From contig NZ_BMCP01000001.1 in assembly GCF_014635245.1 (NCBI RefSeq), positions 1,116,001 to 1,180,000 on the forward strand: 64,000 bases of DNA. The letters run 5' to 3'. This DNA comes from Agaricicola taiwanensis (GTDB lineage: Bacteria > Pseudomonadota > Alphaproteobacteria > Rhizobiales > Methylopilaceae). Within the stretch, counting starts at the first letter, position 1, and each line of letters begins with the position of its first letter. The position numbers and the translations under genes were made by a program. The notes beneath the pieces were generated by a model. That model ran no database searches and was not told the DNA's origin. It worked only from the letters and a program-made list of their open reading frames with translations. Positions 15,259 through 38,931 of the stretch are shown piece after piece.

Positions 15259-15686
15259 GGCAAGCCTCGTCGATAAACGAGATAGCCGTTTTCCTCCCCG
15301 CACGGGACAAAGCCGCTTCGTTCATAAAGGCGGCGGGCCGGAACGCCGGCCAGTACCTTCAGTGTGATATGGTCATGTCCGGCGGCTCGCGCCGCCTCCA
15401 ACACCTGAGTTAGAAGCTCGCTTCCAATTCCACGCCCACGCCAGCCCCCATCCACCATGAAATGATGAAGATGTGCCCGCTTGGGCGCCTTCGATGAGAC
15501 GATCGCGTAGCCGATGAGGGATTTCTCCTGCCACACCGCCCGCGATAACTCCCATTTCTTTGGCAGGTCGACTTCAAAGTGTTCTCGGCGCCAATACTCG
15601 CCTGGAACATCCCGCGCGATTTTGACGAAGGCGTCAGGCGCGCTCTCGAAAGCTGTGCGAGTCAGAACCGCGATACTATGACTCAC
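15255..15686 (-). CDS. GNAT family N-acetyltransferase
   Basis: About 143 residues from a GTG at 15686. This start gives a 4-base GTGA overlap with the stop of the deacetylase gene, like other junctions of this operon; the open frame extends to 15704. The acetyl-CoA binding motif RGRGIGSELL is followed by the beta4-alpha4 elements and GVPARRLYERSGFVP near the C-terminus, both classical GNAT features. Being inside the sugar operon it may acylate a sugar amine, but generic GNAT proteins also act on proteins or small amines. The substrate is unknown. Confidence 0.8.
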   Translation of the reverse strand: MSHSIAVLTRTAFESAPDAFVKIARDVPGEYWRREHFEVDLPKKWELSRAVWQEKSLIGYAIVSSKAPKRAHLHHFMVDGGWRGRGIGSELLTQVLEAARAAGHDHITLKVLAGVPARRLYERSGFVPCGEENGYLVYRRGLP

Positions 15687-18063: not shown

Positions 18064-18741
18064 TTAGCGCTCGATCTGCCGCAGGATTTGGAACGCCTCG
18101 GCCGCCGCGACTCCGATCTCTGAGCCGCGCAGCAGGCCGAGCGCCTTCAGGGCTTCCAGTGAGCGCGGATGCGGAAAATCTCTGAGTTCACCGATATAGG
18201 CGTCCATGGCTGCGATTTTCGCGTCCAGCGTATCGGAGATATCGACCCAGGCATTCGGCACGAAACGCCGCTCCGGAAAGCCCCATTCGCTGGAGGAGAT
18301 CACTTCGCCCGCCCAGACGCGGCGAATAGGGGAGCCAGGCAGGGGCCGCGTGGCGGTGAGCGTCGCATGGGCGGTGACGCCATGGTCGATGTTCACGTCA
18401 CCGGGATGATGGGTGAAGACGGTGTCGGCGCCGGTTTCTCCAAGGAATTCCTCAACGCGCTTGACCACATCAAGCAGCGGCACGCTGTCCATCCGGTTGT
18501 CGGGGAAATCGGCGAACGACACCGAGGCGCATCCGAGCACGCCTGTTATGGCCCTGCTGGCATGGCCGCGGAGCGTCTCCAGCGCCGCCTTGTCGGGCGC
18601 GCCGCGCGCGGCAAGGCCGGTGGCGAGGATCAGCACATGGACTGGCACCCCCCGCGCCGCCAGCTTCGCTATGGTGCCGCCGCAGGCCAGCACCTCGTCG
18701 TCGGGATGGGCCACCACAACGGCGGCGCTCTCGGTCATCAT
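18064..18741 (-). CDS. PIG-L family deacetylase (LmbE-like)
   Basis: About 225 residues from the ATG at 18741, which gives an ATGA overlap with the upstream gene; the frame is open to 18798. The zinc motif AHPDDE is near residue 12 and the second metal histidine lies in FTHHPGDVNIDH, the standard layout of PIG-L enzymes. These zinc enzymes remove N-acetyl groups from sugars such as GlcNAc derivatives. In this position, next to a GNAT gene and in the same operon as a formyltransferase, it may free an amine for re-acylation. No signal peptide, so the substrate is probably a nucleotide sugar or nonulosonate. Confidence 0.87.
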   Translation of the reverse strand: MMTESAAVVVAHPDDEVLACGGTIAKLAARGVPVHVLILATGLAARGAPDKAALETLRGHASRAITGVLGCASVSFADFPDNRMDSVPLLDVVKRVEEFLGETGADTVFTHHPGDVNIDHGVTAHATLTATRPLPGSPIRRVWAGEVISSSEWGFPERRFVPNAWVDISDTLDAKIAAMDAYIGELRDFPHPRSLEALKALGLLRGSEIGVAAAEAFQILRQIER

Positions 18742-19211
18742 CTCGGGTTTTCCTTGAAGGGCAGGCGGTGCTCGTAAGTGACGAAGCTGTCTGAGCAATC
18801 CACCTCGGTAAAGCCTAGCCGCGCGAACAGGCGGCGCGAGGCGAGGTTATCCGCGCGCACCTCGGCGCGCGCGGTCCTGGCAAAGCCCGGTGGCAGGTCC
18901 GTCAGCAATTGGGAAATGGCGGTGGCAGCGACGCCGTCGCGGCGCGCCTCGGGCGCGACGTAGATGTCAACGAGCGCGACGCCGTCCTCCGTCTGCAGGC
19001 GCACCTGACCAAGAGGCCGCCCGCCATCGACGATGATATGCATGGCCGTGGCAGGATCAGCCAGCCGCCGTGCCAGCCAGTCCACATGGCTCTGCCGGTC
19101 TATCGGTGCGCTCGTCAGCCGCTTCTGCGCCAGCGTCTCCGGCGCGTTGACCCATCCGAGCAGGAGATCCGCATCGGCCATGGTGACGGGGCGCAAGGTG
19201 ATGGCGTTCAT
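18738..19211 (-). CDS. GNAT family N-acetyltransferase, PseH-like candidate
   Basis: A 157-residue GNAT protein. The start LRPVTMADADLLLGWVNAPE, followed by HVDWLARRL, resembles the PseH/RimJ-like branch that acetylates the 4-amino group of UDP-4-amino-4,6-dideoxy-AltNAc. DIYVAPEARRDGVAATAI supplies the CoA-binding loop in a less canonical form. PseH is the one standard pseudaminic enzyme not otherwise assigned in the operon, but the formyltransferase between pseC and pseG competes for the same substrate position. This gene could equally act on an amine exposed by the coupled PIG-L enzyme. Overlaps both neighbours by four bases. Confidence 0.72.
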   Translation of the reverse strand: MNAITLRPVTMADADLLLGWVNAPETLAQKRLTSAPIDRQSHVDWLARRLADPATAMHIIVDGGRPLGQVRLQTEDGVALVDIYVAPEARRDGVAATAISQLLTDLPPGFARTARAEVRADNLASRRLFARLGFTEVDCSDSFVTYEHRLPFKENPR

Positions 19212-21256
19212 CGAACCGAGAAGGTGGGCTGAAACATCTCGCCGCGGAGGCGTGCGGCCGGGTCGTGCGCGTCGAGATGGTCGCGCAGAGCGGCAAGAGC
19301 GCCGCGCAGCGCCTTTTCCGATTCTCGCTCAACCAGATGAGAGTCATGGGCGAGGCAGAGGTTGAAGCTCGCACCCATGAGAAGGCCATGGGCCACCACC
19401 TCCTGACGGAACAGGCTTATCAGCAGCTTCTGCTCCACCGGCGCGCTTTTCCAGGCGACGCGCGGCCACCAGCCTTCGCCCGTCATGGCCACCACGTCGC
19501 CAAGCCCGGTTTCGGCCGCGACCGTGTTGAAGGTGTCGCGCAGCCGCGTGCCGAGCCGCGACAGTCGCGCCGGCACGTCCTCGCGTTCCAGCTTGTCGAT
19601 GGTCGCGATCGAGGCTGCCAGCGACAGCGCCTCGCCGCCGAAGGTGCCGGAGAAGAAGATATCCTCCATGCCGCGCATGATGTCGCGCCGGCCCACCACG
19701 GCCGAGATGGGCATGCCATTGCCCATGGCCTTGCCGAAGGCGGAGAGGTCCGGCGTCACGCCATAGCGGGCCTGGGCGCCGCCAAGGCCGACCCGGAAGC
19801 CGGTGACGATCTCGTCGAAAACGAGAATGACCCCAAAGCGTTGCGTCAGCTCCCGGATTCTCTCCAGGAACCCCGGCGCCGGCGGCGTCGCGCCGGAAGG
19901 CTCCAGCACCACCGCGGCCACGCCGTCCGGATCCGCCGTCAGCGCGCGCTCCAGCGCATCGGCGTCGTTGAAGGGAAAGGTGCCGGACAGGGCCTTCACC
20001 GCCGCGGGCACGCCGAGGTCGCGCGTGGTGGTGCCGATGTACCAGTCGTGCCAGCCGTGATAGCCGGCCAGCAGCACCCGGTCGCGGCCGGTATGGGCGC
20101 GGGCAAGCCGCACCGCGGCGGAGGTGGCGTCCGACCCGTTCTTGCCGAAGCGCACCATCTCGGCGGAAGGGATCAGGCGGATCAGGCGTTCGGCGAGATC
20201 AGCCTCCAGGGTCGTCGCCAGCGGGAAGACGATGCCCTTGTCCAACTGCTCGCGAATGGCCGTGTCCACGTCGGGATCGCCATAGCCGAGGATGATCGGC
20301 AGGAGCCCGAGCACGTAATCGATGTAGGAATTGCCGTCGACATCCCAGATGCGCGCGCCCTTGCCCCGCTCGATGAACAGCGGCGTCACCCCCCGCACCC
20401 ACTGCTGGTGAGATTTGGAAAAGGTCTGGCTGGCCAGGGGAATGGAGTCCAGTGCGCGCGCGAAGAGCTGGTTGGAGCGGTCGAAGCGGCGCCCCGTCAT
20501 CTCGGTCAGCTGGCGCAGCGCGCCTTCGTTGGCGCCGTGCCCTGCGTTGAGCCGCATCAGGTCGGGTTTGCGGGTGAGGAGCGCCACCACATCCATCCAG
20601 CCGAAGCTGGTGCCAAGCTCGGCCACCACGGCGCGTGCAAAGGCGAGATCGCCGGGTTCGTCCACCGTGAAGCGCAGGTGGCTGAAGTCGGGTCCTCTCG
20701 CGTCCAGCGCCGCCACCGTGAAGTTCCCCCAGGGCAGGCGATCGCGTCGAAGACCGTGGATATAGGGCGTCACATGCTCGCGCAGGAAGGGCTCCTTCGC
20801 CTCCGCATGGGCGCGCTCCAGCGCCGCGCGCGTGAAGGCTTCGGCATCGAGCCCGTCGGGATAGCGCCGCTCGGTGGTATTGGAGGCATAGTCGGCGCCG
20901 CTATCCAGAAGGCGTCGCACCACGGCGTCGATCACCTCGGGCGCGAGGAAGGGACAGTCGGCGGTCAGGCGCACAACGACATCGGCGCCGGCGGCTTCGC
21001 CCGCGCCCATGTAGCGGCCGAGCACATCCTGTTCGGAGCCGCGGAACAATGGCCAGCCCGCGCCTTCGGCCCAGGCGGCGAGGGCATCGTCGCTTGAACC
21101 GTCGCTGGTGGCAAGCCAGACTGCGTCGATGGTCTCCGCCCGGCGCGCCGCCTCGAGGGTCCAGGCGACGAGAGGCTTTCCGCCGAGATCTTCCATGACC
21201 TTGCCGGGCAGACGCGTCGAGGTCATGCGCGCCTGGACGATGGCGACGGTGGTCAT
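19208..21256 (-). CDS. Fusion: SpsF-like cytidylyltransferase domain + class III aminotransferase (GSA-aminomutase-like)
   Basis: A 682-residue two-domain protein. Residues 1 to about 235 form a nucleotidyltransferase of the SpsF type (AIVQARMTSTRLPGK at the start, then RLTADCPFLAPEV). From about residue 250 it is a class III PLP aminotransferase with NGSDATSAAVRLARA, FDEIVTGFR and the Schiff-base lysine in AFGKAMGNGMP (Lys509), closest in style to glutamate-1-semialdehyde aminomutase. The N-terminal part could make a CMP-sugar. The C-terminal part could transaminate a sugar or move an amino group. The join is in frame without internal start signals, so one polypeptide is made. Placed between the ATP-grasp and GNAT genes with 4-base overlaps; it is a candidate for an unusual nonulosonate activation and decoration step. 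Confidence 0.85.
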   Translation of the reverse strand: MTTVAIVQARMTSTRLPGKVMEDLGGKPLVAWTLEAARRAETIDAVWLATSDGSSDDALAAWAEGAGWPLFRGSEQDVLGRYMGAGEAAGADVVVRLTADCPFLAPEVIDAVVRRLLDSGADYASNTTERRYPDGLDAEAFTRAALERAHAEAKEPFLREHVTPYIHGLRRDRLPWGNFTVAALDARGPDFSHLRFTVDEPGDLAFARAVVAELGTSFGWMDVVALLTRKPDLMRLNAGHGANEGALRQLTEMTGRRFDRSNQLFARALDSIPLASQTFSKSHQQWVRGVTPLFIERGKGARIWDVDGNSYIDYVLGLLPIILGYGDPDVDTAIREQLDKGIVFPLATTLEADLAERLIRLIPSAEMVRFGKNGSDATSAAVRLARAHTGRDRVLLAGYHGWHDWYIGTTTRDLGVPAAVKALSGTFPFNDADALERALTADPDGVAAVVLEPSGATPPAPGFLERIRELTQRFGVILVFDEIVTGFRVGLGGAQARYGVTPDLSAFGKAMGNGMPISAVVGRRDIMRGMEDIFFSGTFGGEALSLAASIATIDKLEREDVPARLSRLGTRLRDTFNTVAAETGLGDVVAMTGEGWWPRVAWKSAPVEQKLLISLFRQEVVAHGLLMGASFNLCLAHDSHLVERESEKALRGALAALRDHLDAHDPAARLRGEMFQPTFSVR

Positions 21257-22281
21257 GGCAGCACCACGAGCGAGGTCATAGGGAGTATGGTGGCGGACTG
21301 GAGATGCGGCCAGTCCGGCAGCGCCTCGCCCTTCGCCACCGAGATGAGGTCATCCAGAAGCGGCAGGCCGGCCGCTACCGAGGCCGCCATGCTGCCGGAG
21401 GGGCGTGGGTTGACCTCGATCACCACAGGCGTGCCGTCGGCACGGGTCATGACGTCGAAGTCATAGAGCCAGGAGAGGCCAAGCGCCTCCGCGAGCCTGC
21501 CGGCAAGGGCATGGAGCCTCGCGTCGAGCTCGATCACATTGCCGAGGAAGGGCATGCCCTCCGGGTTGAGGCGGCGGCGCGGCACGGTGCGCAGCACCTT
21601 GCCCTGCCAAGATAGAACATCGATGTCGTAGCAGGGCTCCTCCAGCCGCTCGCAGACGAGGATCGGCAGGAGGTTCGGCAGCTTGGTCGCATGGTCCCGG
21701 AAGAAGGTCTCGCCATCCATGTGGAGTTCGCGTCCGGAGACGGAGGCGCGGACGCCGATCATGTCATCGCGCACGATGTAGACGCCGCGATTGCCGCGCC
21801 CGCGCGCGGGTTTGGCCGCAAAGGAGCGGCGGCCAAAGTGCTCATAGGCGGCCTCAAGCTCCTCCGCGGTCGAACAGAGCTTCCAGTCGGGCACCTCGAA
21901 CCCCTGTTCGCGCAGCCAGGTGAAGCAGCGCGGCTTGTCGCTGACGAGTTCGAGGGTGGCGGCGTCGGCGCAGGCGAGACGGGTGCCGGTGGCTTCCACG
22001 GCGTCGCGCGCACGCGCCAGCGCCAGGGCCTCTTCATCGGAGCAGGGCAGGAGAAGATCGACCTGCTCCCGCGTCAGAACCTTCACCACCTCGGCCACAT
22101 AGGCAGGATCATCGCCGCGCGGCACCTGCGCATAGGCGTCGGCAAGGCGGCCGGCCACCGGCAGAGGTCCGGCATTAAGCGCCAGTACCCGCACCTCGTG
22201 CCGCCTGGACTGCTTCAGGAGGGTCACGGTGGCGGCCGAAAGCCCGCCGCCCGTCGCCGTAAGGGCGATCGTGAAGCTCAT
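21253..22281 (-). CDS. ATP-grasp domain protein (carbamoyl-phosphate-synthase-like ligase)
   Basis: A 342-residue protein with an N-terminal pre-ATP-grasp domain (LTATGGGLSAATVTLLKQS) and a central ATP-grasp fold. Recognisable are FAAKPARGRGNRGVY (ATP-binding lysine and glycine loop), ILVCERLEEPCYDIDVL and the metal-binding VVIEVNPRPSGSM near residue 305. ATP-grasp ligases join a carboxylate to an amine through an acyl phosphate. Flanked by a nonulosonate synthase and the cytidylyltransferase-aminotransferase fusion, it may attach an amino acid or other amine to the sugar acid, or an acid to a sugar amine. The specific reaction is unknown. It overlaps both neighbours by four bases. Confidence 0.85.
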   Translation of the reverse strand: MSFTIALTATGGGLSAATVTLLKQSRRHEVRVLALNAGPLPVAGRLADAYAQVPRGDDPAYVAEVVKVLTREQVDLLLPCSDEEALALARARDAVEATGTRLACADAATLELVSDKPRCFTWLREQGFEVPDWKLCSTAEELEAAYEHFGRRSFAAKPARGRGNRGVYIVRDDMIGVRASVSGRELHMDGETFFRDHATKLPNLLPILVCERLEEPCYDIDVLSWQGKVLRTVPRRRLNPEGMPFLGNVIELDARLHALAGRLAEALGLSWLYDFDVMTRADGTPVVIEVNPRPSGSMAASVAAGLPLLDDLISVAKGEALPDWPHLQSATILPMTSLVVLP

Positions 22282-23300
22282 GCGAAATCGATCTCCTGAA
22301 GCGGTTGGTGCCGCGCCACGTCACGGGCAAGGCGCCGACCCACCGTGGCGTCGAAGGCCGCCGGAGCCAGTCCTGCCTGTCCCGGCAGCGGGCGCATTAG
22401 GCCGATGTCGTCCTCATCAAGCACATGCCCGGCCTTGAGGTGGCGCCGCGCGGTGAGGCAACGGTGGCGCTGCGCCTTGAGGCGCTGTTCCTCCTCGGTC
22501 GGCCGCTTCACCCCATCGCCGCGCATGGCCTCCACCGCGCGGATATCGGCCACCATGCGGGCGAAGGGCTCAGGCTCCAGCGAGAGCGCGTGGTCGGCAC
22601 CGGGCGTTGTGCGGTCGAGGGTGAAATGCTTCTCGATGACACTCGCTCCGAGCGCCACGGCCGCGAGCACGGCGAGCGTGCCGTCATGATGGTCTGAATA
22701 ACCCACGGGCCGGGCATAACGCTCCGCCAGCGCGGCCATGGCCGTGAGGTTCAAGACCTCCGCCGGCGCGGGATAAAGCGAGGTGCACTGCAGGATCGCG
22801 ACCTCGCGGCCGCCGCCCTCCTCGATGGCCGCGAGCGCCGCGTCGATGTCCGCGATCTCCGCCATGCCGGTCGACAGGATCAGCGGCGCCCTCGTGGCGG
22901 CGCAGCGCCGGATCAGCGGCAGATTGGTGGAAAGACCCGAGGAAATCTTGATCGCCGGGAAGCCCGCGGCGATGGAGAGCTGGAGGCTGGGAGGATCCGC
23001 TGGCGTGGTGAAGAGGATCAGGCCGAGGCTATCAGCAAGAGCCTTCAGCCTGACGTGGGCCTCGAGCGTCAGCTCCTTGCCCTTGAACTCGGCGTAGGAG
23101 GCGGTACCGGGCGCGTAACTCTCGTCCGCATCGACGGTCTGCAGCTTTACCGCATCGGCGCCGGCCTGCGCGGCCGCGCGGATCATCTGCGCCGCCACCT
23201 CCTCGCTGCCGCCGTGGTTGATGCCGACCTCGGCGATGACGAAGGCAGGCTCGCCCGCGCCGATGCGGCGGCCGGCGATGGTGATATGCGGCGTGGTCAT
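22278..23300 (-). CDS. NeuB-family nonulosonic acid synthase (pseudaminic acid synthase by context)
   Basis: A 340-residue synthase of the NeuB/PseI/LegI family. N-terminal TIM barrel: AFVIAEVGINHGGS, AGADAVKLQT and ILSTGMAEIADI. C-terminal SAF (antifreeze-like) domain from about residue 275 (RHRCLTARRHLKAGHVLDEDDI). These enzymes condense phosphoenolpyruvate with a 6-carbon N-acyl sugar to give a 9-carbon sialic-like acid. Its place downstream of pseB, pseC and pseG argues for pseudaminic acid synthesis. However, the typical PseI text (ANHN near the start, LYELY region) is not evident, so it may prefer a modified precursor. One of two NeuB-family synthases in this operon. Confidence 0.85.
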   Translation of the reverse strand: MTTPHITIAGRRIGAGEPAFVIAEVGINHGGSEEVAAQMIRAAAQAGADAVKLQTVDADESYAPGTASYAEFKGKELTLEAHVRLKALADSLGLILFTTPADPPSLQLSIAAGFPAIKISSGLSTNLPLIRRCAATRAPLILSTGMAEIADIDAALAAIEEGGGREVAILQCTSLYPAPAEVLNLTAMAALAERYARPVGYSDHHDGTLAVLAAVALGASVIEKHFTLDRTTPGADHALSLEPEPFARMVADIRAVEAMRGDGVKRPTEEEQRLKAQRHRCLTARRHLKAGHVLDEDDIGLMRPLPGQAGLAPAAFDATVGRRLARDVARHQPLQEIDFA

Positions 23301-25162
23301 GATGTTGATTTCTCTCTCATCAGCTCGCGGATGATCGCCGCGGCGCGCCGTCCGCCGGAGCCTTCGGGTCCCGTGATCGCGCGCCGGTAGAAGGCGTCGC
23401 GATGCTGGCGCTTGGCCGCCCAGGCCTCGCGGATCTCACCGAGCGGCCGCGCCAGCAACTCGCGCAGGCGTTCCGGCCAATCCTCGCGGTCGATGTCCAC
23501 GGTGAGGAAGGAGCGCGAGACCTCCTCGTCCTGCTCGGGCGAGATGAGGGGCAGCACCTGGCGCGACCCCAACCAGACAACCGGCACATCGGCACCCACG
23601 ATCCAGCCGAGGGTTGAGGTCGGCACGCCGGTCACGAGCACATCGGCCGCGGCACGGAGATAACGAAGGTCTTCAGGCGGAGAGAGGCTGACATTGGTCG
23701 CCAGCTTCAGCCTCGCCTCCAGCGGCGGATGATGCGCCAGCCGCTCCGTCGGGTAGGGCTTGAAGACGACCTTGTGCGGAAGCGTGCCATAGACGTCCTC
23801 CACCAGCCGTCGCTCGAGCGTCTCCACGAAGCGCTCGGTCGGCATGCCGAAACCGGCGCGCAGATTGCCCTGATAGATCCAGGTGCTGACGTGGAAAATC
23901 ACCGTCTCCTGCGACGCGAGGCCAAGCGCCTGCCTCGACAGGCGCCGCTGCAGCCGCGGCCGGAACAGCCGCCGCGTCTGGTCAGCGAGGCCGATCGGTT
24001 CGATCCGTGTGGCGGCGGCGCCACGTGCCTCCGCGAAGGCCTTGGCCGCCGTTTGGCTCGCGCACAGCACCACATCGCTGGTCGCGGCTTCGGAGAAGTT
24101 GATCTTGGCCTGTGAATGGGCCGACAAGCCTGTCGTGACGCCATGCTCGAAATCGACAACCGTCGCGCCGGCGGCCTTGAGCGCGGCATAGGTAAGAGTT
24201 CCGCGCGGTCCGAAAAGGCCGTTGGTGAGCACGATCGGCTGCGCCTGCCCGGCAAGCATGCCGGCCATCTGCTTCCTGATGTGCGGCCAGTCCGCGGCAA
24301 CGCGGGCGACCGCGCGGGCGCACCAGAGCGTAAGAATGCGCGCCATCGCCTCCGCCTGCGCCATGTCGAAGAGCCCCAGACCGGAGATACTGCTGCTGAT
24401 TTCCTTTGCAACCATTATCGGCAGCTCGGCCGGCGGCAGGCCGATCGATGGCGGCAGCTTGGGCTTGCCCAACCGCCTCAGCCGCGCACCTGAGAACGCC
24501 AGATGGGGCAGGGCTTCCCGAAGGGCCTCATTCTCGCTCAGCACGAAGATGTCCCGCCGGCCCCGCGTCAGCTTCAGGCGCTGCGCGGCCTCGAGAAGAA
24601 GGAAGCTCAGCGGCAGATGCATGGAGCGGCGGAGGATGTCTTGCGGCACATCCGCCTCGGAGCGGGATCCCGGCTCCGGGAAGGACTGGAGCGTAACAGG
24701 CAGAGCACCAAAGAAGCCCTCTTCCGACAGACTGACTGCTGGGACATGAAGACGGGAAAGCGCAATGCCGTCCGAGCCGGTCATGGGCTGATCGGTGAAG
24801 CCGATGCCGATTGCCTCGGGCCTGTGCGTCGCCACCGCACGCGCGGCGACGAGCCCGCGATAGACGATCGTGGAGATAACGCGGCTGGAGGCGCCGGCAA
24901 GGCGCAGGGCTTCCGCCGGCAGGCCCAGTGCGGCCGGCACTCCGCCTGCGCGCAGGGCCTCGTCGATACGTTCGGCAAGCGCGATGGTCTCGCGTCCGAA
25001 GCGGTTGGCCTCATCCTGCGAGACAGCGGCATCGCCATCGAGCACCCGGCCTTCGGCCGCCGGATCGCGGGCGAGCATGGGGTTGTCGGTGACGATGACG
25101 TCATAACCATTGTCCCGTGCCCACCGGAATGCGGCCAGCGTGTCGATCAGCGCGAGCTTCAT
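23297..25162 (-). CDS. Uncharacterised 621-residue protein with GT-B-like C-terminal half; possible nonulosonate transferase
   Basis: I do not recognise a named family for the whole protein. The N-terminal third starts KLALIDTLAAFRWARDNGYDVIVTDNP-like text that suggests a Rossmann fold. The C-terminal half has features of GT-B surface-sugar transferases: VIFHVSTWIYQGN, KVVFKPYPTERL and YLRAAADVLVTGVPTSTLGWIVGADVPVVWLG, which recall the CDP-glycerol/KpsC-like donor domain. No signal peptide or membrane segment is seen. It lies between pseG and the nonulosonate synthase, overlapping both by four bases. A transferase for the nonulosonate made here is therefore a reasonable guess, especially since no Maf-type transferase is visible. 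Confidence 0.6.
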   Translation of the reverse strand: MKLALIDTLAAFRWARDNGYDVIVTDNPMLARDPAAEGRVLDGDAAVSQDEANRFGRETIALAERIDEALRAGGVPAALGLPAEALRLAGASSRVISTIVYRGLVAARAVATHRPEAIGIGFTDQPMTGSDGIALSRLHVPAVSLSEEGFFGALPVTLQSFPEPGSRSEADVPQDILRRSMHLPLSFLLLEAAQRLKLTRGRRDIFVLSENEALREALPHLAFSGARLRRLGKPKLPPSIGLPPAELPIMVAKEISSSISGLGLFDMAQAEAMARILTLWCARAVARVAADWPHIRKQMAGMLAGQAQPIVLTNGLFGPRGTLTYAALKAAGATVVDFEHGVTTGLSAHSQAKINFSEAATSDVVLCASQTAAKAFAEARGAAATRIEPIGLADQTRRLFRPRLQRRLSRQALGLASQETVIFHVSTWIYQGNLRAGFGMPTERFVETLERRLVEDVYGTLPHKVVFKPYPTERLAHHPPLEARLKLATNVSLSPPEDLRYLRAAADVLVTGVPTSTLGWIVGADVPVVWLGSRQVLPLISPEQDEEVSRSFLTVDIDREDWPERLRELLARPLGEIREAWAAKRQHRDAFYRRAITGPEGSGGRRAAAIIRELMREKSTS

Positions 25163-26199
25163 GATGCGTCACCGGCAGCCTTCACATAGGCGATCAAAGC
25201 CTCCGCGGCGCGCGCGGCTCCCCCTCCGTCGATCAGAGCCGCGGAGCGCCGCGTGAGTTCCGCCAGCTGCTCCGGGCTAGGGTCGAGGCTGCCCGCCGGC
25301 CAGCCTGAAGCAAGCGCCGCCGCGGTGCCGGCGAAGATCACGGCGCCCTCCTCGGCGAGAGCGGTGATCCCCGGCCGCTGGTTCTCCGCCGTCTCGACCG
25401 TGACGCTCGGTACGCCAAGGCAGGCGCGCTCAAGCGCGGACACGCCGCCCGCGCCGATGGCGAGATCGGCCGACGCGAGCCGATCGGCATAGTCCGCCGG
25501 CGCGACCAACAACTCGGCGCCGCACCGTTCGGCGGCCCCGCGCACGGCGGCACCATGGTACGCGGCCGGCCCGATCACGACCTCGATGTGCGCGCCGGGA
25601 AAGGCCTCGCGCGCAGCCTTCAGCGCCGGGACGGTGGCATTGGACCCATCCACCATGCCGAAGCTGATCAGGATGCGGCCGAGCCGCGGCTCTGCGCGCC
25701 GGGTAAGGGATGCCTCCCGCCGCGCCGCGATCTCCGGGCGGATCAGCGTGTAATCACCGCCCGCCAGAACCGCGTGGACCCCGCCCTGATCCAGCCAGTC
25801 CTGCGCCGCGCGGCCGAGCCCGCCGTCGAGAAGGATGTCGGCGTGATGCGGGCGTTGGCCCGGCACGTCGTCGATCACGGCCACCACGGATGTGAAGGTC
25901 CGGCAGGCCTGCTCAAAGACGGCATCGCGGCCGTAGTGGTCTACCACCAGGAGATCGCAGTCGCCGTCGAGCGCTGCCGCGATCGCCTGTGCCTCCGCGG
26001 TCTCCGGACCGTCGAGCAGCATGATGCGGAACCCCGAGGCGGCGAGCGCGGGCGCGCTTTCCGCCGTGCCGGCGCGGCAGGCGAAGGCGAGAGACCAGCC
26101 GCGCGCTGCCAGCGCCTCGGCCAGTGCCAGGCACCGCCCCACATGGCCACCGCCGATGCCGGGTCCGGCGTCGGCGCGAATGACGGCGGTTCGCTTCAT
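25159..26199 (-). CDS. pseG: UDP-2,4-diacylamido-2,4,6-trideoxy-L-altropyranose hydrolase (PseG)
   Basis: About 346 residues from the ATG at 26199, which overlaps the formyltransferase stop as ATGA; an open frame extends four codons further. The start IRADAGPGIGGGHVGRCLALAEAL is the PseG signature, carrying the glycine-rich loop and histidine. Later segments LVVDHYGRDA, ISFGMVDGSNAT and IGAGGVSALERACLGVPSV match the GT-B-like fold of PseG. The enzyme removes UDP from the altrose intermediate to free the 6-carbon precursor for the synthase. It directly follows the formyltransferase, which suggests it accepts an N-formyl instead of, or besides, an N-acetyl form. Confidence 0.87.
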   Translation of the reverse strand: MKRTAVIRADAGPGIGGGHVGRCLALAEALAARGWSLAFACRAGTAESAPALAASGFRIMLLDGPETAEAQAIAAALDGDCDLLVVDHYGRDAVFEQACRTFTSVVAVIDDVPGQRPHHADILLDGGLGRAAQDWLDQGGVHAVLAGGDYTLIRPEIAARREASLTRRAEPRLGRILISFGMVDGSNATVPALKAAREAFPGAHIEVVIGPAAYHGAAVRGAAERCGAELLVAPADYADRLASADLAIGAGGVSALERACLGVPSVTVETAENQRPGITALAEEGAVIFAGTAAALASGWPAGSLDPSPEQLAELTRRSAALIDGGGAARAAEALIAYVKAAGDAS

Positions 26200-27197
26200 G
26201 CGCCGGTCCACTTCAGGCCGGACGGGTTGTAGATGGGCCGAGATAACAGGGCCTGCTCAAGATAGCCGTCCGGCGTGTAGAACCGATCACCTACAGCCAA
26301 TGGCTTGTCGCACACGCAGTCCTGCTTTTGAATCCTCAGGATTCCATCGGAAACACACACGACGAATTCGTCACCGCATGAGCGGATGATGATGCCATTC
26401 GCGAAGGGATGCGACTTCTCACCAGACTCGAACCTGCAATCGAAAATCCGGGCGATTTGACCCGAGCTCAGTGTCCGCGCTCCATCATAGGGATGCGAAA
26501 ATGCCCGAATGAATGTCTCTATGTTTTCGCCGGACCATCGCCAATCGATGTAAGATTGGGTTTCAGTATGCAGACGCGGGAAATAGGTCGCCCGTGATTC
26601 ATCTTGAGGCTGATCCAAGACCGGCCTGCCACTGAGAAGATCGTCGAGAAACTTTAGCAAAACCGGCTCGGCCTGCCGTCGCGCATGATCCGCATAGTCG
26701 CGTGGTAGCCGGCAATCGAGAGGAAAATCATACGCGGACTGTGCGACGATCGAGCCTGTATCGATACCTTCGTCGATCCGGTGAATGGTCGTCGCTCCTT
26801 TCCGGGCACCGGACAAGATCATCCACGAATAACTTGCGCCTCCCCGCCATTCCGGAAGGGAGGTATTGTGCATATTATAAAATTCTTGATCAAATATATC
26901 CAGCAACACTTTCTTGATTAGAAATGGGCTGCCAAAGGAAAAGGCAAAAGATCTTCCGATCAGGGTCTGTCTTATGCGGTCGTATTGATCGGATAGGATG
27001 TCGGTTACAACGATATCCTTGGTGTAATCCGATAGAAGGTCGACGTAAGAAGTTTGATTGGCATCCGTAAGCGATGTCTGCCGTGGGCCGATGAAAACGT
27101 GGCACGTCAGTCCGCGGGAGGCACAAAACCGCGCTGTGGAGAGAGCCAGTTCGCCGGTTCCAAAGATGAAGGCCTGCCTGAACGGATCGGATGTCAA
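26196..27197 (-). CDS. Sugar N-formyltransferase (methionyl-tRNA-formyltransferase-like)
   Basis: About 333 residues. The frame is open to 27611 through the upstream gene, so the start was set at TTG 27197, which overlaps the pseC stop as TTGA and lies just before the first conserved strand FIFGTGELAL. The formyl-transfer triad is present: Asn and His in YNMHNTSLPEWRGG and Asp in DEGIDTGSI, with the HxSLPxxRG loop for N10-formyl-tetrahydrofolate. A smaller C-terminal domain follows (PRLHTETQSYIDW onward), as in ArnA/VioF/WlaRD-type sugar formyltransferases. Its place between pseC and pseG is that of the acetyltransferase PseH, so it probably formylates the 4-amino group of the altrose intermediate. 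It is clearly richer in AT than its neighbours. Confidence 0.83.
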   Translation of the reverse strand: MTSDPFRQAFIFGTGELALSTARFCASRGLTCHVFIGPRQTSLTDANQTSYVDLLSDYTKDIVVTDILSDQYDRIRQTLIGRSFAFSFGSPFLIKKVLLDIFDQEFYNMHNTSLPEWRGGASYSWMILSGARKGATTIHRIDEGIDTGSIVAQSAYDFPLDCRLPRDYADHARRQAEPVLLKFLDDLLSGRPVLDQPQDESRATYFPRLHTETQSYIDWRWSGENIETFIRAFSHPYDGARTLSSGQIARIFDCRFESGEKSHPFANGIIIRSCGDEFVVCVSDGILRIQKQDCVCDKPLAVGDRFYTPDGYLEQALLSRPIYNPSGLKWTGA

Positions 27198-28381
27198 TTC
27201 TCGATTTCCTTCTGGAGCGTCGCCACCACACGCTCCACGTGGGCCTCTGTCATGCCCGCGAAGAGCGGCAGAGACAGGCAGCGTGCATAATAGGCATCCG
27301 CTCCCGGTAGCTCCGGCTTGCCGTAAAGCCGCTCGTAATAGGGCTGGCGGGCGACCGGCAGATAATGGACTTGGCTGCCGATGCCCTGCGCATGAAGCGC
27401 GCGCATCAGAGCGGCCCGGTCCATGCCAATGCCTTGAAAGTCGATCAGCACCACCTGAAGATGCCAGGCGGGGTTTGAGAAGCCCGTGCGCCGCAGCGGG
27501 CGGACCATGGGCGCGAGCGGCGCCAGCTGCGCCTCGTAATGATCGGCGAGGCGCCTCCGCGCCTCCACGAAGCGGTCGAGCTTGCCCAGCTGCGACAGCC
27601 CGAGCGCGCACTGGATGTCGGAGGCGCGGTAGTTGAAGCCCGGCTCCGGCATCTCGTAGTACCAGGGATTGGCCGAGCCATCGGCGGCACTGGCGAGGCC
27701 CAGGTTCTCCATGCGGGCGAGGTCACGCACGAGCCCGTGGCTGCGGAACCGCGCCAGCCTCTCGGCAAGGACAGGATCGCGCGTCGTCACCGCTCCGCCT
27801 TCGCCCATAGCCAGCGTCTTTACCGGATGGAACGAGAACACGCTCATGTCCGACTGCGCGCAGGCACCGATCGGCGCATTGCCCGCGGTTGCGCCGAGGG
27901 CATGGCAGGCGTCCTCGATCAGCACCGCACCCGCCTCGCGGGTGATCCGCGAGATCGCGGTCATATCCTCGCACTGCCCCGCCATATGCACCGGCAGCAC
28001 GGCCTTCACGGCACCGCCGGCGCGGGCAAGCGCCCGGGTCAGATCGTCCGGACGCATCAGGCCTGTGTCCGGGTCGACGTCGGCGAACATGACCTCGCCA
28101 CCAACGTAGCGCACCGCATTGGCGGTGGCGACGAAGGTCACAGCGGGCACCACCGCGGTATCGCCCGGCCCGATGCCTGCCGCCATGCAGGCAAGATGCA
28201 GCCCCGCAGTCGCCGAAGAGCAACTGACCGCATGCGGAGCGCCGACCCTGGCGGCCAGCGCCTCCTCGAAGCGCGTCACTGAGGGGCCGGTGGTCAGCCA
28301 GTCGCCGCGCAGCACCTCCGCCACCGCGGCGATGTCGTCATCCTCGATCAGTTGGCGTCCGTAAGGCAGGAAGGAAGACAT
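27194..28381 (-). CDS. pseC: UDP-4-amino-4,6-dideoxy-N-acetyl-L-altrosamine transaminase (PseC)
   Basis: About 395 residues from the ATG at 28381 (GGGAA ribosome site; the open frame runs upstream into pseB and is not used). Start text FLPYGRQLIEDDDIAAVAEVLRGDWLTTGP is PseC-like. IEDACHALGA and the PLP lysine in FSFHPVKTLAMGEGGA (Lys188) are diagnostic. The enzyme uses glutamate to aminate C4 of the 4-keto sugar made by PseB. Separated from pseB by 11 bases and overlapping the formyltransferase by four. Confidence 0.92.
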   Translation of the reverse strand: MSSFLPYGRQLIEDDDIAAVAEVLRGDWLTTGPSVTRFEEALAARVGAPHAVSCSSATAGLHLACMAAGIGPGDTAVVPAVTFVATANAVRYVGGEVMFADVDPDTGLMRPDDLTRALARAGGAVKAVLPVHMAGQCEDMTAISRITREAGAVLIEDACHALGATAGNAPIGACAQSDMSVFSFHPVKTLAMGEGGAVTTRDPVLAERLARFRSHGLVRDLARMENLGLASAADGSANPWYYEMPEPGFNYRASDIQCALGLSQLGKLDRFVEARRRLADHYEAQLAPLAPMVRPLRRTGFSNPAWHLQVVLIDFQGIGMDRAALMRALHAQGIGSQVHYLPVARQPYYERLYGKPELPGADAYYARCLSLPLFAGMTEAHVERVVATLQKEIEN

Positions 28382-28392
28382 GGCGTTTCCCG

Positions 28393-31255
<2,863 letters not shown>

Positions 31256-31259
<4 letters not shown>

Positions 31260-33804: not shown

Positions 33805-33823
33805 AGCGATGAAATCGTCGTTC

Positions 33824-34453: not shown

Positions 34454-35355
34454 GGCACCTGTCCTGTGCGCTGCGGAAGAACTTCGTCATTCATAGCAAG
34501 ACGGCACCAGGCCGCCGCATCTGCATGCCAGGGGCCGGAGGCAGGGGATGGCATTCGCCGAATGAAATCGGCGAGACGATCCGGGTCCGCCGCAAGACGC
34601 TCAGCGACATTGGCGCGCTCAAGCTCACCGCGCGCGCGGTGATGATCGGCGACGATCCTCAGGCGGCGGCGCGCGCCGGCGATATCGGAAGCGCCGCCGG
34701 CGCCGAGGATGTTGCCAGCATGCTGCCGGTAGAACGCGACCACGCCATCCGCGCGGCACGCGCTGTACCCGGCATCCAGCAATGCCGCGAAGGTCCACCA
34801 GTCGGCCGCGATCACCGGGGGCATGGGCTGTTGTGTCACGCTCCTCAGGGTCCCGCGCCGCACCGCGGTGTTGGAGAAGCCGCAAACATTGGTTTCGGCG
34901 AGCGTGGCGGGGGAGATCACATCCGGCAACGCGGCGCCGAGCATGGGGGCGGCGAACCGCTGCCCGCGATCGTCGATCGGCTGGAGATCACCCACCGAAA
35001 TATCCGCTCTGGAAAGCGCGGCCTCGTGCAGCGCGAGTGCCGGCGGCGTGAGCACGTCATCGGCATCGCAGAACACCACGGCATCGGCATCGCTGGCGTC
35101 CGCCGCCTTCAGCATGGCCGCGCGGACTGCACTCAGCCGCGAGGCCTCGTCGCTGCCGCCTGCCTCCGAGGGAACCAGCCTTACGGGCATGATCCCTGCG
35201 AGGGGCGCGAGAGAGGACTCGGGATCGGCCAGCCCGTCCAGCACCGCGACGAGCGCCGCCTCATGTCCCTGCGACGCGGCGCGGGCGCCATCCATGAAGG
35301 CGCGGAGATAGGGCCGCGCCGCCTCATAGACACAGGTGGCGATCACGATCTTCAC
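34450..35355 (-). CDS. Glycosyltransferase family 2-like protein (GT-A fold)
   Basis: A 301-residue protein. It opens IVIATCVYEAARPYLRAFMDGA, includes VLDGLADPES, and has the DxD-like metal motif in VVFCDADDVLTPPAL near residue 95, all GT2 features. FSNTAVRRGTL and AADWWTFAALLDAGY match the acceptor half. It overlaps neuA-like and methyltransferase genes by four bases at each end. Being directly downstream of the CMP-nonulosonate synthetase it may work on the same glycan, but GT2 enzymes seldom use CMP-sugars, so it is probably another sugar transferase. Confidence 0.8.
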   Translation of the reverse strand: MKIVIATCVYEAARPYLRAFMDGARAASQGHEAALVAVLDGLADPESSLAPLAGIMPVRLVPSEAGGSDEASRLSAVRAAMLKAADASDADAVVFCDADDVLTPPALALHEAALSRADISVGDLQPIDDRGQRFAAPMLGAALPDVISPATLAETNVCGFSNTAVRRGTLRSVTQQPMPPVIAADWWTFAALLDAGYSACRADGVVAFYRQHAGNILGAGGASDIAGARRRLRIVADHHRARGELERANVAERLAADPDRLADFIRRMPSPASGPWHADAAAWCRLAMNDEVLPQRTGQVP

Positions 35356-36029
35356 GCGGCCGCCTCCCGGTGGGCCAGAAGCGCTTCAGCCATCAGGAGG
35401 TCGTCCGGCCCGTCGATGTCGATGGAGCGGCTGGCCGGCATGACATGGCCGAAGCTCCTGGAGCCGAAGTAGGTCCGGCTGCGAGCCAGGGCCTCCATAT
35501 CGAGCACGTAGACCGCGCCGTTGGGGATGACGACCTCGCCATAGCCCTGGCGATTGTCGATGCTGGAGGCGAGGCCGGGCGGGGGGCTCAGCCGTCCGTC
35601 CGGGGCAAGCGCCTGCTGCCAGGCGGCGGGCTTGGCCGCGGTGACCGACAGCACGGCCTCGGCCTTCCGCTCCCGGAACAGGCGCACCGAAGCGTCCACG
35701 TCCTCAGCCCGCCGGAGCGGAGCGGTTGGAAGCAGCACGCAGAGTTCGGAGGTGCCCAGCGCCTCCGCCGCATGGAGATGGACGTCAATGGCCGAAGCGC
35801 TGTCGGTGGCAAGATGCGCCGGCCGCATGAAGGGCACCTCGACCCCCTCGACCGAGCGCGCCACGGCGGCGATCTCCTCGTCGTCCGTCGAGACCACCAC
35901 GCGGCTGATCTCGCGCGCGGCCAGCGCGCAGCGCAGGCTGTGCACGATCAGCGGCAGGCCAGCCAGCGGCAGCACGTTCTTTCGGGGCAAACCTTTGGAA
36001 CCGCCGCGCGCGGGAACGACGGCGATCAT
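35352..36029 (-). CDS. Acylneuraminate cytidylyltransferase family (CMP-nonulosonate synthetase, NeuA/LegF/PseF type)
   Basis: A 225-residue enzyme. The start VVPARGGSKGLPRKN is the nucleotide-binding motif of NeuA/LegF, then LLPTAPLRRAEDVD and the late SIDIDGPDDLLMAE. It activates a 9-carbon acid with CTP to give the CMP-sugar donor. It is the only stand-alone member of its family in the window and is coupled to the upstream NeuB-type synthase by a 4-base overlap, so legionaminic activation is the likeliest role. Whether it also serves the pseudaminic-type product is open. Confidence 0.87.
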   Translation of the reverse strand: MIAVVPARGGSKGLPRKNVLPLAGLPLIVHSLRCALAAREISRVVVSTDDEEIAAVARSVEGVEVPFMRPAHLATDSASAIDVHLHAAEALGTSELCVLLPTAPLRRAEDVDASVRLFRERKAEAVLSVTAAKPAAWQQALAPDGRLSPPPGLASSIDNRQGYGEVVIPNGAVYVLDMEALARSRTYFGSRSFGHVMPASRSIDIDGPDDLLMAEALLAHREAAA

Positions 36030-37063
36030 TGCGCGGAAAGGTCCTGCCAGGACAGAAGCTCATCGGCGGCGATGTCGCGCGTTGCCGTGCGGCCCACGAT
36101 GAGGTGATCCATGTTGGGCGCGATGCCGCGGCCGGGCCGCTTGTAGTCGAGATCGTCCGCCGTCAGCCGCTCGCCCTTCTTCACGTCGCGCGCGGCGACG
36201 ATGGAGCGGCGGAACTCGGCCCTGCGGGAAACCTCGGCGTCGGTCAATGTGCGCCTCGGCCTGCCGAGCGCGGCATGGACGCGATCGCGGCCCCGGCAGA
36301 TGGCCTCCATTTCCGGCATGTCGGCGGAGATCTTGTGATCCCAGCCGAACATGGTCTTGTCGAGCGTGAAGTGTTTTTCCAGCACCACCGCACCGCGCGC
36401 AAAGGAGCCGATCGCGATCTCCGGCCCGAGCGTATGGTCGGAAAAGCCGACGGGATAATCGAAGGCCTCCCGCAGCATGTCCATGTTGAGGAGATTCACC
36501 GCCTCATCCGGCGGCGGATAGAGTCCTAGGCAATGCAGGATCACGATCTCCGAGGCCTTGGCCTCCTCGAGCGTGCGCACCGCGTGGTCGATTTCCTCCA
36601 GCGTGCTGAAGCCGGTGGAGACGATCACCGGCAGACCCGTGCCGGCGGCGTGCCGCAGGAGATAGTCGGACACGAGGTCCATGGAGGCGATCTTGATGAA
36701 GGGCGCACCAAAGGCGACGAGATCATCCACTTGTTCCGGCGTGAACGGCGTGCTGCAGAAGTCGATGCCGATTTCCTTGCAGAAGCCCGCGAGCTCGCTC
36801 ATCGCCTCGCGATGGACCTTGAACTCCGCCATGATCTCCTTGAGAGTATAATCCTTGCGCTCGCGGTAGTCGTCGCCGAGGAATTTGTTCTCCTCGTAGA
36901 CTACCTTGGCGAACAGGCCCTCATCCCAGCTCTGGAACTTAGCGGCGTCGCAGCCGATCTCCTTGGCCGCCAGAATCATCTTCCGCGCCAGGTCGAGGTC
37001 CCCATTGTGATTGGCCCCGATCTCGGCAATCACATAGGGACGCATTCCATGGGAAAACATCAT
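36026..37063 (-). CDS. NeuB-family nonulosonic acid synthase (legionaminic acid synthase by context)
   Basis: About 345 residues from the ATG at 37063; a second ATG at 37060 has better spacing to the GAGAGG ribosome site and may be the real start. YVIAEIGANHNGDLDLA, AAKFQSWDEG, FCSTPFTPEQVD and IVSTGFSTLEEID mark the NeuB barrel. A C-terminal SAF domain starts near residue 275 (RRSIVAARDVKKGERLTADDL). It lies seven bases after the NeuD-like gene and is coupled to the cytidylyltransferase. With LegB, LegC and PtmE types nearby, legionaminic acid synthase is the best reading. Confidence 0.86.
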   Translation of the reverse strand: MMFSHGMRPYVIAEIGANHNGDLDLARKMILAAKEIGCDAAKFQSWDEGLFAKVVYEENKFLGDDYRERKDYTLKEIMAEFKVHREAMSELAGFCKEIGIDFCSTPFTPEQVDDLVAFGAPFIKIASMDLVSDYLLRHAAGTGLPVIVSTGFSTLEEIDHAVRTLEEAKASEIVILHCLGLYPPPDEAVNLLNMDMLREAFDYPVGFSDHTLGPEIAIGSFARGAVVLEKHFTLDKTMFGWDHKISADMPEMEAICRGRDRVHAALGRPRRTLTDAEVSRRAEFRRSIVAARDVKKGERLTADDLDYKRPGRGIAPNMDHLIVGRTATRDIAADELLSWQDLSAQ

Positions 37064-37070
37064 TTTCCTC

Positions 37071-37640
37071 TCATGAGGTGCGCGGTGCCAGGCTTGCCGC
37101 GCGTACAAAACCATGTGCCCTGACCGCCTGTTGAGGTAGAACAACAGCCCCGGCACCAATCATCGCGTAGGCGCCAACGTAACCGCCGCCGAGAACGATT
37201 GCCCCGGGAGCGATATGCGCTCCAGCTTCGATGACGGAATCATGCTCGACGATGGCGCCGCTGTTTATGATCGTGAAGCGGCCGATGTGTGCTTCGGCAT
37301 TGATGATCGCACCTGGCATGATGTGGGCGCCGTCTTCTACGGTCGCGCTCGGCGAAACCATGGCTCGGGGATGAATGATCGCCGGCATTTCGCGACCCTG
37401 CGCCAGCTTCTCGAAAAATGTGACCCGCTTGAGCAGCCCGTCAGGCGTTACGCCGCCGAGGCCAAGCACGAATGGAAGGTCGGCGACAGACTGAAGATCA
37501 CTGTCCTTCTCGATCCATTCCGCGTCCAGCCAATCCGCCTTCTGCGGATCGCAGTAGACGGCCACAGTGTGTCCAGCTTCTCTGAGCCCGTCAGTCACAA
37601 CCTTGGCATGGCCACCCGCGCCGACCAGGCAGACGCGCAT
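37071..37640 (-). CDS. NeuD/PglD/LegH-type sugar N-acetyltransferase
   Basis: About 189 residues from the ATG at 37640 (TGATG overlap with the aminotransferase stop; the upstream open frame is not used). N-terminal Rossmann-like substrate domain with VCLVGAGGHAKVV. C-terminal hexapeptide helix, for example HIMPGAIINAEAHIG and HIAPGAIVLGGGYVG. The catalytic histidine is probably in AIVEHDSVIE. PglD/LegH enzymes acetylate the 4-amino group of the bacillosamine precursor made by the aminotransferase just upstream. NeuD-type O-acetylation of a sialic acid is the alternative. Confidence 0.83.
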   Translation of the reverse strand: MRVCLVGAGGHAKVVTDGLREAGHTVAVYCDPQKADWLDAEWIEKDSDLQSVADLPFVLGLGGVTPDGLLKRVTFFEKLAQGREMPAIIHPRAMVSPSATVEDGAHIMPGAIINAEAHIGRFTIINSGAIVEHDSVIEAGAHIAPGAIVLGGGYVGAYAMIGAGAVVLPQQAVRAHGFVRAASLAPRTS

Positions 37641-38782: not shown

Positions 38783-38894
38783 AGAGGAGGGGGTGCGCAA
38801 TAGCTACCGCACAGCGGGTGAAATCCAGCCATCCCACTGCGCGACACGTCTTCAGGAAAGTGGCGTACACCCGGTTTGTTTGGCTGGTCAAGAT

Positions 38895-38917
38895 GCATGT
38901 TCATGCTATGAACATGC
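38895..38917. promoter_or_regulatory. Perfect 10-base inverted repeat between divergent glycan operons, probable operator
   Basis: Arms GCATGTTCAT and ATGAACATGC separated by GCT. It lies in the space between legC (minus) and the aldo/keto reductase gene (plus). On the minus strand a TTGACC hexamer (38891-38886) follows almost directly, which could be a -35 box, so the repeat would sit where an activator binds. On the plus strand it would be in the leader of the reductase gene. The repeat is seen; a dimeric regulator controlling both operons is inference. Confidence 0.5.
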
Positions 38918-38931
38918 CACTCGAAACAGGG

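Follow-up and report, generated by a model that had tools for sequence, protein, structure and literature searches.

We examined a stretch of 64,000 nucleotides from Agaricicola taiwanensis (contig NZ_BMCP01000001.1, positions 1,116,001 to 1,180,000; hereafter the window, whose first letter is position 1), part of a genome of 3.76 Mb, and in particular five minus-strand genes at 18064-23300. They encode a nonulosonate (NulO) synthase, an ATP-grasp ligase, a fusion of an SpsF-type cytidylyltransferase with a class III aminotransferase (AT3), a GNAT acyltransferase and a PIG-L family de-N-acylase. The operon to which they belong very probably builds a sialic-acid-like surface sugar, a NulO. That this sugar is CMP-activated, carries an extra amine, is remodelled in its amides and goes into a surface glycan is a reading to which we give even chances. 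With somewhat less confidence than that, we propose that SpsF-AT3 together with an aldo-keto reductase (AKR) or an EpaB-like short-chain dehydrogenase/reductase (SDR) is a set for amination at C8 found across phyla, to which the window's mainly alphaproteobacterial clade would have added ATP-grasp, PIG-L and GNAT for aminoacyl or other amides on a triamino-NulO, and of which at least one phage would carry a compact version.

The operon and its gene families

The genes of the operon are as follows.

18064..18741, minus: PIG-L family de-N-acylase (Pfam; nearest solved structures TT1542 and diacetylchitobiose deacetylase)
18738..19211, minus: GNAT acyltransferase (Pfam; PseH model 33 bits, below the cutoff of 93)
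19208..21256, minus: fusion of SpsF-type cytidylyltransferase and class III aminotransferase (Pfam; alignment)
21253..22281, minus: ATP-grasp ligase (Pfam; model pLDDT 89.2; matches 2pn1, RizA 4wd3, PurK and others)
22278..23300, minus: NeuB1, NulO synthase, not a canonical PseI (Pfam NeuB and SAF)
23297..25162, minus: CAP1, possible GT-B glycosyltransferase, 621 aa (low-confidence model; homologues in 9 loci examined)
25159..26199, minus: PseG, UDP-sugar hydrolase (TIGR03590, 187 bits, cutoff 154)
26196..27197, minus: N-formyltransferase, between PseC and PseG (Formyl_trans_N and _C above Pfam cutoffs; TTG start)
27194..28441, minus: PseC, 4-aminotransferase (longest open reading frame; TIGR03588, 493 bits, cutoff 424)
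28393..29412, minus: PseB, inverting UDP-GlcNAc 4,6-dehydratase (TIGR03589, 519 bits, cutoff 408)

An earlier note on this DNA, made from the letters alone, had described the five genes from PIG-L to NeuB1 as a possible module of their own. All five are open frames, the families it had named were all matched in Pfam, and the overlaps of four bases are exact at 4/4 junctions, given the ATG at 18741 that we chose as the PIG-L start (the longest open reading frame begins instead at the TTG at 18798). The five genes do not stand alone: they are the end of a PseB-PseC-formyltransferase-PseG-CAP1-NeuB chain, and the self-contained module was set aside because the formyltransferase, PseG and CAP1 share the overlap chain with PseC. 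The 4-bp overlaps run unbroken from PseC through the formyltransferase (TTG 27197), PseG, CAP1 and NeuB1 down to PIG-L, with PseB just before PseC. The start of PseG was taken from the translation as ATG 26199, the longest frame beginning at GTG 26211; the longest PseC frame overlaps that of PseB by 49 bp, and the true PseC start may lie further in. The outline of the note stood, the upstream pathway had been missed, and the carbon on which the aminotransferase would act had been left unnamed.

That the operon encodes a NulO pathway, as the note had also held, is borne out by a NeuB/SAF synthase, a CMP-transferase and precursor genes in a single operon, with PseB, PseC and PseG above curated cutoffs. 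The nearest solved structure to NeuB1 is SpsE (1vli); the protein reaches 238 bits with the PseI model (cutoff 340) and 302 bits with the equivalog of NnaB, the N-acetylneuraminate synthase (cutoff 400). The GNAT falls short of the PseH cutoff, and the spot between PseC and PseG is occupied by the formyltransferase. Gene content, linkage, family membership and conserved motifs were observed directly, the motifs being QARM.STRLPGK in SpsF; YHGWHDWY and FGKAMGNG in AT3, of which we take the latter to be the PLP lysine site; AHPDDE and GDVNIDHG in PIG-L, which scores 88 bits against a family cutoff of 28; and ExNPR, read as EVNPR, in the ATP-grasp ligase, where ExN is presumably the metal site. 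CAP1 matched no family in Pfam; its model (pLDDT 62.8) has TagF and other GT-B enzymes as best structural matches, a hint from a weak model that it is possibly a GT-B glycosyltransferase.

Relatives of the fusion and its SpsF-type domain

The fusion has 682 aa, with CTP_transf_3 at residues 4-167 and Aminotran_3 at residues 291-588 (Pfam). Genome contigs were scanned for its relatives, and the best 80 of 573 were kept as loci (L numbers below). Homologues of NeuB1 occur in 62/80 of these, of PseC in 52, of PseB in 46 and of PseG in 30 (E<1e-12); short contigs are frequent among these loci, and some of the PseC-type matches may be DegT enzymes of another kind. Most often the genes run PseB-PseC-(GNAT or methyltransferase)-AKR-(SpsF-AT3)-PseG-NeuB, in records labelled Pseudomonadota, Bacteroidota, Cyanobacteriota, Chlorobiota, Actinomycetota, Planctomycetota and others, many of them metagenome bins, so that some labels may be wrong. 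Plasmid pSMR1-1 of Pseudosulfitobacter pseudonitzschiae SMR1 shows this arrangement too, the AKR being followed there by a GNAT and a hypothetical gene, and carries annotations for pseB, pseC, pseG and pseI; a Sinorhizobium plasmid match comes from a record with no annotated features.

In a rival explanation, the window makes an ordinary acid of the pseudaminic (Pse) or legionaminic (Leg) type, activated by SpsF, while AT3, ATP-grasp and PIG-L act on sugars next to it in the same polysaccharide. Further sugar genes do lie in the locus, along with glycosyltransferases and a second NulO set; but AT3 is fused to SpsF, homologues of NeuB1, PseC, PseB and PseG are frequent in the 80 fusion loci, and NeuB1 lies below the PseI and NeuB equivalog cutoffs. 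We regard this explanation as distinctly unlikely, and a plain Pse or Leg pathway was set aside on account of the fusion and of the two missed synthase cutoffs.

A quick maximum-likelihood tree was built from 111 AT3 domains, taken from the 80 scan loci, 29/30 further stretches and the window; besides the window, its rows represent 110 AT3 genes from 109 loci; two genomes are each represented by two loci (L003/L134, L011/L147), and L159, L160 and L161 sit on very long branches. Neighbours were labelled by clustering and best BLAST hits, which makes the counts of common families approximate. The largest clade, here called type-A (51 rows, 100% support), has an AKR within 1.6 kb in 46/51 rows, against 16/59 of the other rows. 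A second clade (99%), whose 8 rows belong to Ignavibacteriota and Bacteroidota, includes 6 rows with an SDR, 6 with a HAD phosphatase and 5 with a transketolase-like gene; none of the 8 has PseB or PseC within 9 kb. The clade of the window comprises 23 rows (97%; two genomes occur twice); within 9 kb, 17 of these rows have the ATP-grasp gene and 13 have PIG-L. In the 88 rows outside it, ATP-grasp is that close in 4. Synthases of type-A loci reached the PseI cutoff in 3/3 loci tested, and window-type synthases missed both the PseI and the NeuB cutoffs in 4/4. In six loci (L013, L015, L016, L068, L076 and L080) AT3 stands with SpsF, an EpaB-like SDR, a HAD phosphatase and NeuB, in three of the six also with a transketolase-like gene; these loci lack PseB and PseC and perhaps follow a different NulO route from a phosphorylated sugar.

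Residues Q, A, R, S, R and K of the N-terminal SpsF motif are kept in 94-97% of rows. NeuB lies within 9 kb in 52 fusion loci, and in 35 of these the stretch contains no further cytidylyltransferase frame; in the window the other cytidylyltransferase sits with NeuB2, the synthase of the second NulO set. In Bacillus subtilis, transfer of Leg to the spore depends on spsF, although complementation of the spsF mutant failed in that study (PMC7439481; here and below, published systems are cited from the available parts of the papers). The proposal of the note that the SpsF-like domain activates the sugar in place of a NeuA enzyme is, in view of those loci and of this precedent, likely, and the fused domain would carry out CMP activation.

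The association of fusion and ATP-grasp recurs beyond chance in other genomes. Among 385 alphaproteobacterial genomes (G numbers; window's genome included), the ATP-grasp gene was found in 10 (E<=1e-20), the fusion, or AT3 encoded on its own, in 28 (E<=1e-75), and both in 9, where 0.73 would be expected (hypergeometric P about 1e-10, genomes treated as independent). All nine carry the two on the same contig, no more than 4.2 kb apart in eight genomes and 10.6 kb apart in the ninth. With the window's genome left out, 8/9 ATP-grasp genomes carry the fusion (P about 2e-9, on the same assumption). The tenth ATP-grasp genome, G063 (L162), has NeuB, CAP1, PIG-L, PseG, PseC and PseB around the ATP-grasp gene, and no fusion within that stretch. 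The fusion gene is accessory in the window's lineage, since of its 40 nearest relatives only G028 has a full fusion-like match (G033 has a 60-residue piece).

A viral contig, IMGVR_UViG_3300032893_002216 (L169:52-7057), carries a gene for a terminase large subunit followed by a NulO-type set of AT3, AdoMet decarboxylase, a short AKR (232 aa), SpsF, NeuB and PseB, a compact phage-borne counterpart of the sets described here. In phage records, no SpsF relative was found at E 1e-8, and AKR matches were only 6 and weak.

Proposed amination at C8

The free non-anomeric hydroxyls of Pse are those at C4 and C8, and epimerisation of a free hydroxyl goes through a ketone. 8-amino-Kdo, made by way of a dehydrogenase and an aminotransferase, offers an analogy. 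In Acinetobacter baumannii prophages, EpaA (CTP_transf_3 and AKR) and the SDR EpaB convert Pse5Ac7Ac to 8ePse5Ac7Ac in vivo, as established by complementation and NMR (PMC12053666). One of the two should therefore oxidise C8 and the other reduce it. Plasmid sets of SpsF, AKR and SDR were compared with the AT3 loci: in Marinovum and Maritalea an SpsF-AKR protein lies beside an SDR, and in Priestia megaterium (NZ_CP085435.1; L172:2747-11706) SpsF, AKR and SDR are three genes within a pse operon, which is predicted to make 8-epi-pseudaminic acid. The AKRs of all three sets score 185-266 bits with the profile of type-A AKRs, whose own training rows score 254-414 bits and with which another AKR of the window's genome scores 61. 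The Priestia SDR scores 144-205 bits with SDRs beside AT3 in 6/8 loci of the Ignavibacterial type, 158 in L043 and 123 in L029, against a best of 108 bits over 32 SDR places in the window's genome. SDRs were accepted at 75 bits or more, L062 and L141 being dropped as generic-level given the 108-bit control; the comparison covered the frames of the AT3 loci and this control genome, within which 'nearest' is to be understood.

Within 10 kb of the 110 AT3 genes, 69 have an AKR, 9 (in 8 loci) an EpaB-like SDR, 2 both and 34 neither, so that 76/110 have one or the other; absences are weak, as the locus stretches extend some 10 kb beyond the fusion and many contigs are short. AT3 thus seems to fill, in its own loci, the place that one or the other C8 oxidoreductase holds in the epimerase sets, and for this reason we propose that AT3 probably aminates a C8 ketone to give an 8-amino-NulO.

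Two other roles of the enzyme at C8 were weighed. In the first, the transaminase would take part in a variant C8 epimerisation by way of an 8-amino or 8-oxo state, the product retaining its 8-hydroxyl. Hydroxyl epimerisation requires no PLP transaminase, and AKR and EpaB-like SDR occur together near only 2/110 AT3 genes, both in L029; the precedent of a CTP_transf_3-AKR protein and an SDR that perform 8-epimerisation (PMC12053666) notwithstanding, this variant is highly improbable. In the second, AT3 would act as an aminomutase, like glutamate-1-semialdehyde (GSA) aminomutase, and shift the C7 amine of a 7-amino-8-oxo-NulO to C8. GSA aminomutases are indeed the nearest solved structures to the AT3 domain and its closest NCBIfam models, and these enzymes act on a vicinal amino-carbonyl. 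The scores with GSA aminomutase models all stay below cutoff, however (hemL 265 bits against 527, PRK06209 365 against 486). A role of AT3 as the heme enzyme HemL was rejected, since no HemL cutoff is reached and AT3 adjoins NulO genes in other genomes. Tenacibaculum maritimum is a synonym of Flexibacter maritimus. The O-polysaccharide of Flexibacter maritimus, a fish bacterium, is reported to contain a 5,7-diamido-8-amino-3,5,7,8,9-pentadeoxy-nonulosonic acid, its C8 configuration undetermined, with nitrogen at C5, C7 and C8 (PMC3210612). Such a sugar is a precedent for the proposed 8-amino-NulO, and it too speaks against the shift, which we consider very unlikely. The available text of a review and a genome paper on T. 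maritimum singles out no O-antigen genes, and in the open literature we found no biosynthesis of an 8-amino-NulO, a sugar described from one bacterial O-polysaccharide (PMC3210612).

For amination at C8, an oxidoreductase would have to supply the ketone. The idea that no AKR of this kind exists in the window was rejected, since a search of its own genome found one at 38818-39870, near the second NulO set.

38818..39870, plus: AKR, NulO-linked subfamily; candidate oxidase for C8 (type-A AKR profile, 201.8 bits)
36026..37159, minus: NeuB2, synthase of the second NulO set, alternative partner of the AKR (Pfam; NCBIfam below both cutoffs)
35352..36029, minus: PseF-like cytidylyltransferase beside NeuB2 (CTP_transf_3; PseF 137 bits, cutoff 206)

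This AKR scores 94.7 bits with one type-A AKR, the next best place in the genome scoring 20.6, and the AKR of this genome used above for comparison scores 60.6 bits with the type-A profile. The EpaA-EpaB set of CTP_transf_3, AKR and SDR is incomplete in the window, where the AKR subfamily is present and the SDR missing.

Several observations weigh against C8 amination or its place in this operon. The window's AKR lies 17.6 kb off, on the opposite strand and beside NeuB2; it may serve either NulO set, perhaps that of NeuB2. The Priestia (EpaB-type) SDR has no match inside the window, its best in the genome (108 bits) lying elsewhere. In the window's clade, an AKR is within 10 kb in 7/22 other rows, and 15/22 have neither AKR nor EpaB-like SDR at that distance. 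Of the 34 AT3 genes noted above with neither, 14 have a Gfo/Idh/MocA gene. The nearness of AT3 to GSA aminomutase makes an amine shift possible, NeuB1 is not a canonical PseI, which leaves the backbone configuration uncertain, and 17/52 fusion loci with NeuB hold at least one further cytidylyltransferase-like frame (three of them weak, 46-49 bits). Because the AKR is distant, no EpaB-type SDR is present and 15/22 clade rows have neither, the case for C8 amination is less strong in the window than in the 51-row clade.

Probable amide remodelling, known systems and neighbouring genes

In Foldseek, the ATP-grasp model matches the L-amino acid ligases RizA, YwfE and that of B. licheniformis, as well as PurK, PurT and biotin carboxylases. 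Because its model matches such enzymes, the ligase probably joins a carboxylate to an amine, in agreement with the amide- or peptide-forming role that the note had given it. A homocitrate-synthase-like (HMGL) gene occurs in 8 loci (L005, L007, L014, L025, L135, L149, L151 and L154); 7/8 belong to the window's clade with ATP-grasp within 9 kb, and 5/8 also have a PhyH dioxygenase gene, as if these genes supplied the acid for ligation. The same genes favour a reading in which AT3 makes a side group, a small amino acid that ATP-grasp couples to an amine of the NulO: an HMGL enzyme, in five loci with PhyH, could make an acid, and ATP-grasp lies near the fusion in 17/23 rows of the clade. But AT3 is either fused to the CMP-transferase or encoded near it, is accompanied most often by the AKR, and in 84/88 other rows has no such ATP-grasp within 9 kb; a side-group role is, in our estimate, unlikely.

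PIG-L was found in 25 loci and touches NeuB in 7. The order is PseG-formyltransferase-PIG-L-NeuB in L017, L028, L142 and L144, from a cyanobacterium, a 'Deltaproteobacteria' bin and alphaproteobacteria, and PseG-formyltransferase-NeuB-PIG-L in L139; the other PIG-L loci have no such pairing, except that in L151 a formyltransferase lies on the other strand. The formyltransferase family of these loci was checked in Pfam on one member. The arrangement hints that an N-acetyl group is removed and a formyl group then put in place. In the window the GNAT gene directly follows AT3, and GNAT may acylate the new amine. Judged by families and gene order, ATP-grasp, GNAT and PIG-L probably remodel amides.

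The route would then run as follows. PseB and PseC would give UDP-4-amino-4,6-dideoxy-L-AltNAc, the formyltransferase would acylate N4, PseG would take off UDP, and NeuB1 would condense the product with phosphoenolpyruvate to a 5,7-diamino-NulO. Next, the C8 hydroxyl would be oxidised, perhaps by the AKR at 38818-39870 or else by another oxidoreductase, the AT3 domain would transaminate the resulting ketone to an 8-amino-8-deoxy-NulO, and the fused SpsF domain would add CMP. PIG-L would free one amine, and ATP-grasp (with an amino or other carboxylic acid) and GNAT would acylate free amines. For the backbone and activation steps we rely on the families of PseB, PseC, PseG, NeuB and SpsF; C8 oxidation and amination, as well as the sequence of amide changes and the positions they affect, are read from comparison with other gene sets.

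The note had further claimed that none of the genes except the synthase belongs to standard pathways, which is too strong: SpsF belongs to the sps pathway, PseH is a GNAT (that of the window reaching 33 bits against 93), and Aeromonas pse islands are already on record with a reductase-pseF-class III aminotransferase order and with deacetylases (PMC7874193). In these group I polar flagellin glycosylation islands, published in 2021, several subgroups have pseB, pseC, an 'alpha/keto reductase', pseF, a class III aminotransferase, pseG and pseI, and some have deacetylases; the order AKR-pseF-class III aminotransferase, to which no function was assigned in the available text, is that of most type-A loci (PMC7874193). 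Unlike the window, they are described there without mention of an ATP-grasp gene, and their synthase is called PseI, whereas NeuB1 lies below the PseI cutoff. The canonical pathway PseB-C-H-G-I-F shares PseB, PseC and PseG, above cutoffs in the window, but here the GNAT and NeuB1 miss the PseH and PseI cutoffs and the activating domain is SpsF-like. The B. subtilis sps pathway to legionaminic acid likewise has an SpsE-like synthase and an SpsF-like transferase, but the available text names no AT3, ATP-grasp or PIG-L, and the precursor genes of the window are PseB and PseC (PMC7439481).

EpaA-EpaB resembles the present set in joining CTP_transf_3 with an AKR, and sets of the same architecture have an AKR of the subfamily seen here; it differs in having an SDR instead of AT3 and, as product, an 8-epimeric hydroxyl rather than an amine (PMC12053666). 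The Pse cluster of Moritella viscosa encodes a bifunctional SpsF-type protein, proposed by its authors as a NeuA replacement, whose second domain is an AKR and not AT3 (PMC7371886). In Clostridium acetobutylicum, CA_C2186-CA_C2199 brings together spsE, spsF and an ATP-grasp aminoacyl ligase, but the published table has neither an AT3 fusion nor PIG-L (PMC4000134). The O-antigen cluster of Legionella pneumophila serogroups 6 and 12 has a GSA aminomutase beside a cytidylyltransferase and PseG, but as separate genes and, in the available text, with no mention of ATP-grasp or PIG-L (PMC3694923). An SpsF-AT3 fusion goes unmentioned in the available parts of the NulO papers on Clostridium and Leptospira. 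The single families and the AKR-pseF-AT3 order are, then, already known; in the open literature we found no function in print for the AKR-AT3 pair or for the clade with ATP-grasp and PIG-L.

If our proposal is true, the AKR and AT3 gene pair, common in pse clusters and now annotated as 'aldo/keto reductase' and class III aminotransferase or 'glutamate-1-semialdehyde aminomutase', predicts a sialic-acid-like sugar with an extra amine, possibly free and positively charged, and the ATP-grasp clade predicts additional amide decorations. It would also tie these operons to the prophage-borne EpaAB chemistry that alters capsules (PMC12053666).

Two regions flank the operon. The second NulO set (31256-38800) holds, besides NeuB2 and the PseF-like transferase, a CBS-nucleotidyltransferase that we take to be PtmE-like, a LegC-like aminotransferase (361.7 bits, cutoff 420) and two operon proteins, at 32314-33804 (496 aa) and 34450-35355 (301 aa), with no Pfam family at E 0.001. 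Below PIG-L (11254-18060) lie Asn-synthase-like, WbqC and glycosyltransferase genes, with a possible mosaic boundary to the NulO block. The overlap chain stops at PIG-L, a 3-bp gap separating it from the Asn-synthase-like gene, and third-position G+C is 0.76-0.85 from PIG-L to NeuB1 versus 0.63-0.69 in the next four genes downstream; from this fall and the pause in the chain, the NulO block and the glycan genes that follow may be joined pieces of different origin.

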